Shown here in pieces: positions 1 to 4,751 of a stretch of 64,000 bases of DNA (position 1 is the first letter of the stretch; each line of letters starts with the position of its first letter). Location of the stretch: assembly GCF_001570525.1 (NCBI RefSeq), contig NZ_BBXC01000008.1, positions 845,247 through 909,246 on the forward strand. Direction: 5' to 3'. The DNA is from Herbidospora sakaeratensis. Lineage in GTDB: Bacteria; Actinomycetota; Actinomycetes; Streptosporangiales; Streptosporangiaceae. Both the position numbers and the translations under genes were made by a program. The notes beneath the pieces are model-generated. The model was not told the origin of the DNA and made no database searches. It saw only the letters and a program-made list of their open reading frames with translations.

Positions 1-1131
1 GCGCTGGTTGGGCGCGATCACGCTGATTCCGGCCTGGGCGAAACGCTGGAGGGTGGGGTCGAAGCCGAGGTCCCAGGCGGCTTCGGGGCCGCCGTGCAGC
101 GCGATGAGCACGTGTTCGGCTCGCCGCCAGTCGGGACCGTAGACGACGGCCTCCATCGTCCCGGCGGGCCCGTCGAAGCGTTCGAGCCGGGCGTCGCACC
201 AGGGCGTGTCGTGTCCGTCCGCCCACTCCGCGACCCCGGACGGGTCGACGGCGAGCACGCCGGAGGGATGCGCGGGGGCGGAGTAGCCGAAGCGCAGCGT
301 GTCCTTGGTCCAGGCGCTCGCGAACCCGATCACCCCTGGTGGAATCGGCTGCTCGCGCACCTGGTCGGCACGCCGCTCGTGGATCAGCAGGCGGGAACGT
401 GCTCCGTCGGTGACCTTCAGCGCGAGCCGGTCCCCCGACGGGTCGACGGCCAGCGGCGACACGGCGCCCCTGATGTCGTTCAGTTCGCGCGGCAGGTGAA
501 CATGCGGGTCGCCGGGGGTGAGCCAGCCCAGCCGCACGCCGTCCGTGACCAGCACGTCCCCCGTCGCGGGGGACGACAGCAGGACCGCGCCCCCGTCGTG
601 GGCGAACGGGGTCACGGCTCCGCTCGTCAGATCCAGGACGACGGCCCGGCGTTCGCCGTCGACGATCTGATCGGCCGCGAGCCGGCGGCCGTCAGGCGTG
701 AGGCGGCACTCCTTCGTGATCATCCCCGGCAGGCCCAGGACCGGTTCGAGGCCCTCGCCGGTGAGCCGCTGGATGACCGTGTTGCCGTTCGTGTACGCCA
801 CCAGCATGGCCGCCACGTCCGGATCGGGGCTTGGAAAGGCGCGCAACCTCTCGGCTCGCACCGTGGCCACCCGATGCGCGACGTGGCCGCCGTCGGACGG
901 GGTGATGACGGTGACCTCATGGGCGCCGGATCCGGGCCGCAGCAGGACGATCTCTCCGTCCTCCGCCGGAGTCACCTGCGCCGGTAACCCGGTCGTGGCG
1001 ACCCGCCGGACGTCCGCGTGCCCCCGCTCGAACGACCACGCCTCAACGGCGATCCGGCCGTCGCCGTCGATGGTCAGGCAGGCGGCGTGGTCCCCCCGCG
1101 CGGAGAATCGCAGGCTGACTCGATGAACCAT
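1..1131 (-). CDS. S9-family (prolyl oligopeptidase-like) peptidase, C-terminus outside window; candidate lanthipeptide leader peptidase
   Basis: The frame opens at ATG 1131, with AAGGGGG just upstream, and stays open to the window edge, giving 377 residues. Most of this looks like the N-terminal beta-propeller of S9 peptidases. The last 45 or so residues enter the alpha/beta-hydrolase domain (LIALHGGPEAAWD, an oxyanion-hole-type HGG). The catalytic Ser/Asp/His lie off-window. No signal peptide is visible, so it should be cytoplasmic. It is the third gene after lanL and lanA on the same strand. Prolyl-oligopeptidase-type proteases such as FlaP remove leaders in some class III lanthipeptide pathways, so a leader-removal role is inferred from context. 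A general peptidase remains possible. Confidence 0.8.
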   Translation of the reverse strand, partial: MVHRVSLRFSARGDHAACLTIDGDGRIAVEAWSFERGHADVRRVATTGLPAQVTPAEDGEIVLLRPGSGAHEVTVITPSDGGHVAHRVATVRAERLRAFPSPDPDVAAMLVAYTNGNTVIQRLTGEGLEPVLGLPGMITKECRLTPDGRRLAADQIVDGERRAVVLDLTSGAVTPFAHDGGAVLLSSPATGDVLVTDGVRLGWLTPGDPHVHLPRELNDIRGAVSPLAVDPSGDRLALKVTDGARSRLLIHERRADQVREQPIPPGVIGFASAWTKDTLRFGYSAPAHPSGVLAVDPSGVAEWADGHDTPWCDARLERFDGPAGTMEAVVYGPDWRRAEHVLIALHGGPEAAWDLGFDPTLQRFAQAGISVIAPNQR

Positions 1132-1157
1132 GTCGCCCCCTTCGATGGATTCAGGAG

Positions 1158-1189
1158 GTGCCGGTCTCTCCCGAGCGAGAGACCGGCAC
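1158..1189 (-). terminator. 13-bp perfect hairpin between lanA and the peptidase gene (attenuator or processing site)
   Basis: GTGCCGGTCTCTC and its exact complement GAGAGACCGGCAC are separated by a 6-nt loop. The stem lies 15 nt after the lanA stop and about 27 nt before the peptidase start. In the direction of transcription it is followed by CTCCTGAATC rather than a T-run. Partial termination or 3'-end protection of the lanA message is therefore more likely than full termination. Confidence 0.7.
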
Positions 1190-1203
1190 GATAAGAATTC
1201 CGG

Positions 1204-1326
1204 CTAGATCGTCGAACCCTGGTATTCACAGGTGATGATCAGACACGTCGCGAAGCACGGGTAAAGGCCCACACCCGTGGGGTCTTCAGCCGGCAGCGTG
1301 TCCAACGCCATGATGTCGATCTCCAT
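1204..1326 (-). CDS. class IV-type lanthipeptide precursor peptide (LanA), 40 aa
   Basis: ATG 1326 overlaps the lanL stop (TGATG). It follows GGAGGTGATT, a near-perfect Shine-Dalgarno, so a high translation rate is expected. The leader MEIDIMALDTLPAEDPTGVG resembles, from memory, the venezuelin (VenA) leader segment LPETDPVGVDG. The core that follows, LYPCFATCLIITCEYQGSTI, has three Cys (C24, C28, C33) and four Ser/Thr (T27, T32, S38, T39). The FATC stretch also resembles the start of the VenA core (FAATC). There is no double-glycine cleavage site; leader removal may fall to the adjacent S9 peptidase. The placement after lanL and the short length are seen directly. The product class rests on leader similarity and on the synthetase next door. 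Confidence 0.85.
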   Translation of the reverse strand: MEIDIMALDTLPAEDPTGVGLYPCFATCLIITCEYQGSTI

Positions 1327-4028
1327 CAGAAATCACCTCCCTCCCTGCTGAGATTCGGAACCGCGCCGCGAAAGCGGGCAACGGGGAACCATGGCCGCGG
1401 ACCGCCGTGCCGCAGCCGAATGAGAAAGCACAGAACCCCGGAAAGGCCGTTGCCGAAGTAGGCGTAGCTGTCGGTGCCGGACACATCGGGGAGCACCTGG
1501 CGGCCGTTCACGTGAAAACGCCGCAGATGAGCTACTCGGACGAGCTCGTGCGCCCATTCGCGATAACGCGGATTCCCGGTGGCCTCGGCCAGGTCGAGCA
1601 GGAACTCACCACCGCCGGCCAGGCCGCAACATTGGCCGAGCATCGTCGACCATTGAGATCGGCGAATCGCCGTGGCGGCCTGGTCGAGCAGCGGGTGAAT
1701 GTCTTTGTCGCCGGTCTGTCGCCACATCTGGAGCAGGAAGGCCGCCACGCCGCTCGATCCGCTGCACCAGCGGGTGTGCGGGGTTTCGTCGCCGGGGCCG
1801 ACGCCCCAGTAGGCGGCGTCGTCCTCTATCCGCGCGGCCGACACGAGCGTGTCAGCCGCCTCGGCCGCGAGGTCGACGTACAGGCTGTCGTCGAGTGCCC
1901 GCCCTGCGGCGAGCAGGAAGGCCGCGATGCCCGCCGTCCCATGGGCGAAGCCGTAGTGGACGACGCCCGCCAGGGAAGAGGTGAAATCCCGCGGGATCGG
2001 CCACAGGATCTGGCCGTCTCGACGTTGGGCCGCCGTCAGGAGCGCGTCGGCCGCCGTCCGCGTCCGGGCGAGGAACTCGTCGTTTCCGGTCCTCTCCCAG
2101 AATCGCAACTGGGCGAGACCGGCCCCCGCGGTGCCGTGGCAGACGTCGGGATTGGGCCAGGCGAGGGGCACACGCAGCGCGAGGTCGGTCGCGACGTCGA
2201 CCAGTCGCCGGTCGTCGAGCAGCCGGCCCGCGTCCAGCAGCGCCCACGCCGTGCCCGACCGGCCGAACTGCAGGCCGGGCAGCAGGCGGGGCTCCCATGG
2301 CACGGCACGGCGGATCCAGTTCGCCGCGACGGCGACGGCCTCCTCCAGCGCCGCGCTCGGCCGAACCTCATGAGCACGGGTGAGCACGCCCAGCACCCCG
2401 CCGGCGCCGTGCTGCACGTTGAGCGGATCGGTCGCCCGCTCCCTCGGCGAGGCCGGCCACAACCGTGCCTCGTTCTCCGGCTCCATGGTCGCGATCAGGT
2501 GATCGATCCCGTCGGCGATCAGCCCGTCGATGATCTGCTCGGGCTCCGGCGAGGCTTGAAAAGCCTGAGTTTCCTGTACGAGGCCGCGTGCGGCCGCCGG
2601 CCCGGGACGCCGCCCCGGGTCCTCGTCCATGAGCGCGAGAATGACGGCCGCCAGGCGGCGCACGACCGGATTGCCGATCGACATGTGCGCCAGCCAGTCA
2701 CGCAGGCGCTCGTGCGCCGTCCGCACCTGCGGCCGCTCGGGCGCGAGCAGCGGGTCGACCCCGCCGGCCAGGTAGAACAGCGTCGCGCCCAGGCCATAGA
2801 GATCGACCCTCTGGTCGGGCGCGGGGCCCAGACCCGACACCGGCACCTGCTCGGGAGCGCCGTAGGCGGGGGTGAACGCCCGCACCGTCGTCTCGCCGGG
2901 GCGGGCGGCGACCTCCACGTCGATCAGGCGCAGGTCGCCTTCGGGCCTGACCATCACGTTGTCGGGAGTGAAATCCTGGAAGACCAGCCCGCGCCCGTGC
3001 ACCGCCTCCAGCAGGTCGATCAGCCGCCCGGCCAGCCTCACCGCCTGGTCGGCCGGAGGTCCCCAGGCGACGTCGTCGGCGAATTCCAGGCGGGTCCGCA
3101 CCCATTCGCGGAGGGTGACACCGGCGACCGCCTCCTGCACCAGGAACAGGTCGCCTTGTTGCTCGAACAGGCCGACCAGGCGGGGCGTCACCGCCGACGT
3201 GCCCAGCGTCTCCAGCACGGCCGCCTCACGCCGGAGCGCGTCGCGGGCGTCCCTCCCGGTCAGGTCGCCGTTGACGTGGGCCCTGGCCTGCTTGACGATC
3301 ACCCGCTCGCCGGTCACCTGATCCGTGGCCCGGTAGACGCCGCCCCTGAAGGCGTGCCTGACGGCGGCGGTGACCGCGTACCGTCCACCGAGCAGGACCG
3401 CCGTGGGCGCGGCGGCCGGGCCGGCCGGCGCGGACCGGAAGGGATCGCGCGGCGCCCAGGCCGGCGGGGTGAACCACGCCTTGCGCTCGTCGAGAACCGG
3501 CTCCCCCTCGGGGTTGACCAGCATCGCCTCATACGACCCGTCGTTGCCGAGCATCGGCAGCCCGTGGAACACGCCGAACCGGTAGTGCACCAGGCTGCCC
3601 TCGCGGTAACGGCGGTCGGACAGGATGCCGGGACCCGGCAACCCCGCCGTCGCCTCGTGCAGCTCATCGGCCAGCAGGCGCAGCCGCTCCTCATCACCGT
3701 GCGGGTAGGCCGTGATGAACTTGCCGCCGCCGCCTCGGTCGAAGCGCGCCGACGTCAACTGCCGCACGGCGTCGAGGGTGTGCGCGAACTTGAACGCGCA
3801 ACCGTGCCGGACCAGCACGTCGGCGGCCCGCGCCAGAACGTGGGGCGCGGACAGGACCGTCGCCGACAGGTGCAGCTTCCATCCCTGGACGGCCTGCCGT
3901 CTCGGTTCCCGGCCGGGGCGCACGGTGCACCAGAAGTCACCCGGCTCCACCCGCCATTCGACGGCTTCGTGGCGGCCGATGATGGCACGGACACAATCCT
4001 CCAGAATCGTGTCTTCAATCTTGGTCAT
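1326..4028 (-). CDS. class IV lanthipeptide synthetase (LanL-like): lyase, kinase and LanC cyclase domains
   Basis: This 900-aa protein should phosphorylate Ser/Thr of the precursor, eliminate phosphate to give Dha/Dhb, and cyclise Cys onto them. Residues 1-200 fit the phosphoSer/Thr lyase region. Residues about 213-480 are a Ser/Thr kinase: ATP lysine K246 (VIVKQ), catalytic loop QDFTPDN (D352, N357), metal Asp D370 (LIDVE, replacing DFG). Residues about 530-880 are a LanC fold with HG-type repeats (VCHGTAG, FAHGTAG). Candidate zinc ligands are C755 (WCSG) and C800-C801 (CCGLAG). Class III LanKC enzymes lack these ligands, which argues for class IV. The third ligand is Cys rather than the usual His, as in CCG-type enzymes such as ProcM. 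The start has GGAAG upstream. It is the first gene of the operon. Confidence 0.9.
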   Translation of the reverse strand: MTKIEDTILEDCVRAIIGRHEAVEWRVEPGDFWCTVRPGREPRRQAVQGWKLHLSATVLSAPHVLARAADVLVRHGCAFKFAHTLDAVRQLTSARFDRGGGGKFITAYPHGDEERLRLLADELHEATAGLPGPGILSDRRYREGSLVHYRFGVFHGLPMLGNDGSYEAMLVNPEGEPVLDERKAWFTPPAWAPRDPFRSAPAGPAAAPTAVLLGGRYAVTAAVRHAFRGGVYRATDQVTGERVIVKQARAHVNGDLTGRDARDALRREAAVLETLGTSAVTPRLVGLFEQQGDLFLVQEAVAGVTLREWVRTRLEFADDVAWGPPADQAVRLAGRLIDLLEAVHGRGLVFQDFTPDNVMVRPEGDLRLIDVEVAARPGETTVRAFTPAYGAPEQVPVSGLGPAPDQRVDLYGLGATLFYLAGGVDPLLAPERPQVRTAHERLRDWLAHMSIGNPVVRRLAAVILALMDEDPGRRPGPAAARGLVQETQAFQASPEPEQIIDGLIADGIDHLIATMEPENEARLWPASPRERATDPLNVQHGAGGVLGVLTRAHEVRPSAALEEAVAVAANWIRRAVPWEPRLLPGLQFGRSGTAWALLDAGRLLDDRRLVDVATDLALRVPLAWPNPDVCHGTAGAGLAQLRFWERTGNDEFLARTRTAADALLTAAQRRDGQILWPIPRDFTSSLAGVVHYGFAHGTAGIAAFLLAAGRALDDSLYVDLAAEAADTLVSAARIEDDAAYWGVGPGDETPHTRWCSGSSGVAAFLLQMWRQTGDKDIHPLLDQAATAIRRSQWSTMLGQCCGLAGGGEFLLDLAEATGNPRYREWAHELVRVAHLRRFHVNGRQVLPDVSGTDSYAYFGNGLSGVLCFLIRLRHGGPRPWFPVARFRGAVPNLSREGGDF

Positions 4029-4343: not shown

Positions 4344-4751
4344 TTGGCCGTCACCCTGGCTGACCATTCAGCCGGCTTTCGCGTGGTTCCGAAGGCCGCC
4401 GTCACGGTGAAGATCAAGAAGATCGTCGACGGTGACACGGTCGACGTCATGTACAAGGGGCGGACCGAACGGCTGCGCATCTGGTCGGGCGCATGCGACG
4501 GCGGCACCCCTGCTCCCAAGCCCTCCCCCAAGCCGTCGCCCACGCCCTCTGGCGGAGGCGGCGGGAGCAAGCCGACCTCCAGCCCGACGCCCTCGCCGAC
4601 GCCTTCAGGCGGATCGGGTGGCGACGACCCGAGGTTCGACACGTGCGCCAAGGCAAACGCGGCCGGATACGGCCCTTACCACAAGGGCACCGACCCGGAA
4701 TACGCGTGGTACCAGGACCGCGACGGCGACGGCATCGTCTGCGAACGCTGA
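4344..4751 (+). CDS. Excalibur-domain protein with a truncated nuclease-like N-terminus; possibly degraded
   Basis: The C-terminal ~40 residues form an Excalibur domain (calcium-binding-like) ending in DRDGDGIVCER, with a partner Cys in FDTCAKANAAGYG. A long Pro/Ser/Gly linker (PKPSPKPSPTPSGG and similar) precedes it. The N-terminal part contains IKKIVDGDTVDVMYKGR, which matches the first strands of thermonuclease (SNase) domains, but the rest of that domain is missing. The only in-frame start I see is TTG 4344, without a good ribosome site or signal peptide, although the frame stays open further upstream. Full-length relatives typically have signal, SNase and Excalibur parts. This copy therefore looks like an internal-deletion product that may not be expressed. 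Confidence 0.5.
   Translation: MAVTLADHSAGFRVVPKAAVTVKIKKIVDGDTVDVMYKGRTERLRIWSGACDGGTPAPKPSPKPSPTPSGGGGGSKPTSSPTPSPTPSGGSGGDDPRFDTCAKANAAGYGPYHKGTDPEYAWYQDRDGDGIVCER

Follow-up and report, generated by a model that had tools for sequence, protein, structure and literature searches.

Gene content and organization of the locus

We analysed a 64,000-nucleotide stretch of the Herbidospora sakaeratensis genome (C8:845247-909246 of assembly G000, hereafter the window), the left end of which carries a lanthipeptide locus. Its gene order is lanL-lanA-S9-rSAM, the genes encoding a synthetase, a precursor peptide, a peptidase of family S9 and a radical S-adenosylmethionine (radical-SAM) protein. All four are transcribed on the minus strand, with lanL, lanA and the 5' part of the S9 gene at window positions 4028 to 1. 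The whole locus is covered by region L011, 20 kb starting at contig position 830247, and has the following features.

1326-4028, minus strand: lanL, class IV lanthipeptide synthetase by domain and family profile matches, 900 residues
1332-1340, minus strand: ribosome-binding site GGAGGTGAT serving lanA, from the sequence
1204-1326, minus strand: lanA, 40-residue precursor with an ALQxL-family class IV leader, from the open reading frame and NF038157
1255-1263, minus strand: codons for Tyr22-Pro23-Cys24, the aromatic-Pro-Cys motif, from the motif survey
1-1131, minus strand: 5' part of the gene for an S9 peptidase resembling acyl-peptide hydrolases and prolyl oligopeptidases (POPs); full gene L011:14407-16131, 574 residues
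L011:13418-14437 (G000:C8:843664-844683), minus strand: radical-SAM gene, 339 residues, wholly outside the window, with its start codon within the S9 gene

The lanL stop codon and the lanA ATG share one base (TGATG), and the ribosome-binding site GGAGGTGAT stops 5 bases upstream of that ATG, which bears out the original prediction of a 40-codon precursor gene overlapping the end of lanL. The S9 gene extends about 590 bases past the left end of the window, and its end overlaps the start of the radical-SAM gene by 31 bases. The latter gene begins about 560 bases outside the window on that side, its ATG preceded by AAGGAG. A neutral Zn peptidase gene immediately downstream (L011:12639-13337) was rejected as an operon member, since a search of the other 153 regions of our survey at E 1e-5 returned no homologue.

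The synthetase belongs to class IV, as had been proposed. It scored 1088.9 bits against the class IV model NF038150 (cut-off 650), and a class III identity was rejected on 458.3 bits against a cut-off of 575. RamC_N, Pkinase and LANC_like domains all exceeded their Pfam cut-offs, placing lyase, kinase and cyclase in one protein. The kinase Lys and both Asp were kept in all 63 aligned LanL proteins, this one included (here and below, kinase residues were counted in a single automatic alignment). The cyclase zinc ligands are present (WCSG and CCG), the third being a Cys (QCCGLAG) where His is usual; among the 63 proteins, CHG was found in 57 and CCG in 6. These six three-Cys proteins comprise the clade of L011, L101 and L102, plus L205, L206 and L208. 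Judged from its genes, the locus is of a known kind, that of the class IV lanthipeptides, and a lanthionine product is predicted.

LanA (MEIDIMALDTLPAEDPTGVGLYPCFATCLIITCEYQGSTI, 40 residues) has core cysteines at positions 24, 28 and 33. It scored 27.3 bits (cut-off 19) against NF038157, a 17-residue leader model entitled 'ALQxL family class IV lanthipeptide', and therefore belongs to a catalogued family. The short core with three Cys had initially been called unrecognised; it opens YPC, unlike the cores of family members seen beside a LanL without a radical-SAM gene. From residue 20 onward, 1 of 21 positions differs in L101 and none in L102.

The S9 peptidase, claimed from the window, was recovered in full. 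The 377 residues encoded inside the window gave no Pfam S9 match, and the complete 574-residue protein scored 52.4 bits against a Peptidase_S9 cut-off of 22.6, with an additional match to Hydrolase_4. Its best matches among solved structures were acylamino-acid-releasing enzymes, and its Ser-Asp-His residues (GASYG, ERDH, GGAHY) aligned with 1ve6.

Two features thought unusual at the outset turned out to be ordinary. The supposedly inverted order, lanL before lanA, is that of venezuelin (PMC2843593; here and below, sources are cited for the parts of their text that were accessible), and an S9 homologue was present in 35 of the 66 LanL-type loci examined. The S9 gene was thus rejected as the oddity of the locus, being common in such loci and not tied to the core motif described below. 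Extension to the left, recommended for finding transporter genes, revealed no ABC transporter genes in the 20 kb of L011 with a single ABC query; in the window, the matches to this query closest to the operon are over 37 kb away, at 41.8-44.0 kb and 61.8-64.0 kb. The real novelty lies outside the window, in a radical-SAM gene that appears to accompany a fixed aromatic-Pro spot in two lanthipeptide classes.

A radical-SAM family with a SPASM-like C-terminus

The radical-SAM protein matched PF04055 at 85.2 bits. Its nearest NCBIfam model was MftC (117 bits, under the cut-off of 265), and many SPASM-type maturases followed, PqqE scoring 59.1 (under 381.35). MftC, StsB and PqqE were among the best 25 of 72 NCBIfam matches, which contained no peptide epimerase. 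Matches to solved structures, whether by query or by profile, ended by residue 192, inside the radical-SAM core. The CX3CX2C motif was present in every one of the 86 relatives aligned, and beyond it no Cys was invariant; among the lanthipeptide-associated proteins, Cys169 was kept in 57 of 69 and Cys155 in 42 of 69.

The C-terminus retains a SPASM-like stretch, which for most of the first 24 relatives reads EPDGxxRAMPxYEGxVGN, with no conserved ligand Cys. RAMPIYEG and its variants occupy the place expected for the first SPASM Cys, according to what we take to be the SPASM cysteine pattern. Because a SPASM-like C-terminus is present and its conserved ligand Cys are missing, the protein probably descends from a SPASM enzyme and no longer has the auxiliary clusters.

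Relatives at E 1e-40 or better occurred in 23 of 250 genomes of the family and ALQxL precursors in 20 of 250. In 345 genomes of the order, a set that overlaps and largely repeats the first, the numbers were 30 and 24. In a scan of named-species genomes, the best 80 of 104 matches yielded 76 distinct radical-SAM loci. They come from Streptosporangiaceae, Streptomyces, Amycolatopsis, Actinoplanes, Kribbella, Nocardia, Geodermatophilus and others, and a few are from Microvirga and Hyalangium. Plasmid origin was considered and rejected, the radical-SAM protein having no plasmid match at E 1e-60.

The radical-SAM gene accompanies an aromatic-Pro core start in two classes

Neighbourhoods were compared in 154 regions. 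L100 was left out of all counts because neither a synthetase nor a radical-SAM gene is there, and removal of 25 duplicates from the remaining 153 left 128 distinct loci, 82 with the radical-SAM gene (rSAM+) and 46 without it (rSAM-). The sampling of the two groups was unlike, as rSAM+ loci were mostly found by searches with the radical-SAM protein and rSAM- loci through ALQxL leaders or the LanL model. A synthetase lay near the gene in 65 of the 82 rSAM+ loci, from several actinobacterial families: 32 were LanL-type and 33 LanX-type (class-III-type), assigned by the best tblastn query. Of the 34 rSAM- LanL-type loci, three (L211, L212, L213) fell under the class IV cut-off. Four LanX proteins scored 687 to 997 bits against the class III model (cut-off 575), and the LanL zinc ligands were not among the commonest forms in the corresponding columns of the LanX alignment. 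As far as these four examples were tested by sequence, LanX is class III.

The core motif was first noticed on visual inspection of the initial 38 regions. Cores beside the radical-SAM gene opened LYPC (as here), LWPC or LFPC, whereas ALQxL cores beside a LanL without that gene opened LRGC, LRDC, LQIC, LKYC and the like. Class III precursors beside the gene carry a different leader and opened HPC in P450-LanKC-LanA-ABC-rSAM loci or WPC in rSAM-LanKC-LanKC loci. Rules for picking precursors were written later and used leader pattern, ribosome-binding site and Cys only, not the motif; lists from earlier rules had been seen before the final union rule was set. The motif was defined as F, W, Y or H followed by P after residue 13. 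Its strict form, in which this dipeptide precedes the first core Cys, is a refinement made after the data were seen. In our locus, L101 and L102, the rule took an inner start codon.

By the final rule, the motif was present in 59 of 60 rSAM+ and 4 of 34 rSAM- loci with a precursor (Fisher p 4e-19); an earlier, narrower rule gave 46/47 and 2/29. The strict form was found in 59/60 versus 1/34 loci, or in 77 of 80 versus 1 of 47 precursors. In loci outside the discovery set, the motif occurred in 39/39 rSAM+ and 2/22 rSAM- loci (strict form, 1/22). The four rSAM- loci with aromatic-Pro anywhere were L093 and L097 (FPK, past the first Cys), L233 (near the C-terminal end) and L203. The L203 pick is a second, membrane-like open reading frame and probably not a precursor, and some other rSAM- picks, such as L194, may not be precursors either. 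Position 1 of the 77 motif-bearing precursors was W in 45, Y in 14, H in 12 and F in 6.

POPs cleave after Pro, and the S9 gene and the motif co-occur in the operon described here, as they would if the motif served the peptidase and the radical-SAM gene merely travelled along. The distribution of the strict motif among LanL-type loci with a precursor makes this very improbable. With S9, it was found in 18/19 rSAM+ and 0/16 rSAM- loci; without S9, in 8/8 rSAM+ and 1/7 rSAM- loci. Moreover, S9 occurred in 0/33 LanX-type rSAM+ loci, yet the motif was present in 32/32 of those with a precursor. Division of the LanL-type loci by ABC genes gave 13/14 (ABC present) and 13/13 (absent) for rSAM+ loci, against 1/20 and 0/3 for rSAM- loci. 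The strict motif thus tracks the radical-SAM gene and neither the S9 nor the ABC genes.

The same contrast was seen within single genomes holding more than one LanL locus: G058 has LWPC beside the radical-SAM gene and LRGC without it, and G179 has LFPC with the gene and LKYC and LQVC without it. The radical-SAM gene changed state at least 9 times on a 63-row LanL tree, 6 of the changes being forced by well supported branches. Four independent contrasts could be drawn on such branches; the motif was concordant in 3.6 of them on average (3.8 for the strict form) and opposite in 0.

It might still be argued that this is an ordinary class IV locus with an unrelated radical-SAM neighbour. Radical-SAM genes were noted generally in lanthipeptide clusters in 2020, in a text whose accessible part shows no function for them and contains neither this family nor the motif (PMC7268733), and 17 of the 82 rSAM+ loci lack a counted synthetase. 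We give this explanation very little credence, in view of the overlap with the S9 gene, the LanL- or LanX-type synthetase nearby in 65 of 82 loci across several actinobacterial families, and the association with the motif.

In the LanKC proteins encoded beside the radical-SAM gene, the kinase seems degenerate, while all 63 LanL are intact. In single copies, the beta3 Lys was replaced by L, R, S or V in 16/16, against K in 10/11 rSAM- copies. In all 17 rSAM+ tandem LanKC pairs (L126, L128, L132, L136, L139, L145, L147, L148, L150, L155, L158, L160-L162, L166, L169 and L175) the first copy lacked the first catalytic Asp, and the second kept both Asp and had, at the Lys position, R in 15 pairs and K in 2. 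The one rSAM- tandem pair (L227) was intact.

A proposed additional modification of the lanthipeptide core

On the basis of these comparisons, we consider it likely that the four-gene operon directs the synthesis of a class IV lanthipeptide that is further modified at the aromatic-Pro(-Cys) start of its core, Y22-P23-C24, by a radical-SAM enzyme shared between two lanthipeptide classes. LanL would bind the ALQxL leader, phosphorylate and eliminate core Ser/Thr residues (candidates Thr27, Thr32, Ser38 and Thr39), and close thioether rings with Cys28 and Cys33, perhaps also with Cys24. The radical-SAM enzyme, which probably holds a single [4Fe-4S] cluster, would abstract a hydrogen at Tyr22-Pro23-Cys24, and the aromatic residue or its neighbours would be modified, most likely by a cross-link with loss of 2 H. 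The leader would then be removed by the S9 peptidase, perhaps through cleavage following Pro12 or Pro16, and an aminopeptidase encoded elsewhere might assist. The same radical-SAM family would serve class III synthetases, whose precursors have another leader and the same aromatic-Pro-Cys start.

Several observations weigh against this proposal. A leader-binding domain was not found in the radical-SAM protein by Pfam. A synthetase was not counted in 17 of the 82 rSAM+ loci (in L146 and L156 the contig ends within one), and the family therefore occurs in further settings. The picking rule found no precursor in 22 of the 82, and lists of small open reading frames for the loci without a synthetase held no convincing one. 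L085, an rSAM+ locus, has a sole candidate precursor without the motif, and in L121 and in L167 a single precursor out of three is without it. The residue after Pro was Cys in 72 of the 77 motif-bearing precursors; the other five had P (twice), E, D or Q (once each). L100 (G201:C4:27500-47400) encodes an ALQxL precursor with LYPC and has neither LanL nor radical-SAM gene in 20 kb; the same genome has two radical-SAM genes on other contigs. Finally, a sign test on the four contrasts of the LanL tree gives p 0.125, and with this number of contrasts 0.05 is out of reach.

As to the other contexts, relatives of the radical-SAM gene were seen beside a YcaO-TfuA fusion (L170:6789-10010) and a lantibiotic-dehydratase/LanB-like protein (L086:11347-13668). 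From these neighbours, the family may serve other peptide classes too.

For the chemistry, we rank a cross-link first, with a chance not far short of even. The aromatic ring would be joined to the residue two on or to the Cys sulphur, giving a bridge like a three-residue cyclophane or an aryl thioether. The residues at position 1 (W, Y, F, H) are ring residues accepted by triceptide enzymes (PMC11002830; Y and H from the title of its reference 108), and the nearest curated hidden Markov models (HMMs) are largely those of SPASM-type maturases. However, the three-residue-cyclophane enzymes in the accessible part of PMC11002830 contain SPASM, the Cys of which are absent here, and such C-C cyclases are described as needing their auxiliary clusters for the modification (PMC8326336). 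Furthermore, the third residue is Cys in nearly all of our precursors, where the examples in PMC11002830 use Asn, Asp, Arg or Ser.

Epimerisation, in which the alpha carbon of the aromatic residue, Pro or Cys would be inverted with the mass unchanged, ranks second and is unlikely. It would fit a single cluster, as in the proteusin epimerases (PMC8326336), and epimerisation of Pro has been reported in the cca pathway, where the epimerase is a PoyD homologue (PMC10676384). Known epimerases, however, use a critical Cys (PMC8326336), for which the best candidate here, Cys169, is incompletely conserved as given above, as is Cys155, and the best 25 of 72 NCBIfam matches were free of peptide epimerases. 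The remaining weight goes to other chemistry or to no action at all. A wider suggestion is that a radical-SAM family without SPASM clusters, adopted by classes III and IV with their different precursor leaders, installs a new side-chain bridge in the aromatic-Pro-Cys start, needing no auxiliary cluster. We put this forward tentatively, judging from sequence that the balance tilts somewhat against it.

Relation to known systems

Venezuelin and its class IV relatives (VenL-VenA-VenTH) share with our locus a LanL with lyase, kinase and LanC-like parts and a lanL preceding lanA (PMC2843593), whereas our locus has S9 and radical-SAM genes, no close ABC genes and a Cys-Cys-Cys zinc site in the cyclase. 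The leader places LanA above the curated cut-off of the NF038157 precursors, but its core opens YPC, and members beside a LanL without a radical-SAM gene read RDC, QIC, KYC and so on. Like FlaP, the POP of flavipeptin (PMC10885120), and other lanthipeptide proteases of POP type, our S9 peptidase is encoded in a class III/IV operon; unlike FlaP, it has S9 acylamino-acid-releasing enzymes as its closest solved relatives, and its cleavage of the leader is predicted only.

With the triceptide 3-CyFE radical-SAM/SPASM enzymes (XncB, OscB, MscB), too, the short core motif begins with an aromatic residue (PMC11002830). Our family differs in lacking the SPASM cluster Cys, in having Pro at position 2 and in having a lanthipeptide as its putative substrate. 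An aromatic-X-X core motif is present, as aromatic-Pro-X in 59/60 loci, which is not proof of a cyclophane, and the SPASM Cys are not. Membership is not claimed, since the 3-CyFE enzymes described in the accessible text contain SPASM. MftC and PqqE resemble our protein in that MftC is its nearest curated HMM, but both scores are below cut-off and the auxiliary-cluster Cys are absent here. PoyD-type epimerases likewise have Cys for one radical-SAM cluster only; our family, however, has no further invariant Cys that could be catalytic. For the C-terminal RRE expected of such epimerases, Pfam gave no match in our protein at E 0.01.

The accessible parts of PMC7268733, PMC10885120, PMC8960859, PMC10206099, PMC10676384, PMC9576775, PMC8326336, PMC11002830 and PMC2843593 make no mention of this radical-SAM family and motif. 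A radical-SAM partner and core motif common to classes III and IV are thus new as far as the mainly open literature, supplements aside, shows, and an earlier description is possible. The locus yields a specific testable case, with enzyme, substrate and target residues named and two relatives with almost the same core. If our proposal is true, the product would be a hybrid of a lanthipeptide and a radical-SAM cross-linked peptide, and the system would test whether side-chain cross-linking needs SPASM clusters. A radical-SAM enzyme free of auxiliary clusters and tied to a three-residue start in two precursor families could also be a tool for peptide engineering.

Other features

Four LanL-type loci (L138, L143, L149 and L152) have two radical-SAM copies each, and their precursor candidates are very short, ending FPCKCTC, FPCRCTCHTAE or FPCCGTC. 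L115 (also L076) has the radical-SAM gene and an ALQxL precursor with LYPC, without a LanL within the stretch; a LanL of the same genome is at G118:C21 (L096). The H. sakaeratensis genome also carries a separate class III LanKC (L002, G000:C11:460892-462019), which scored 768.4 bits over the 578 residues scanned. Within the window, a gene at 4344-4751, divergent from lanL, encodes a small product with an Excalibur calcium-binding domain.

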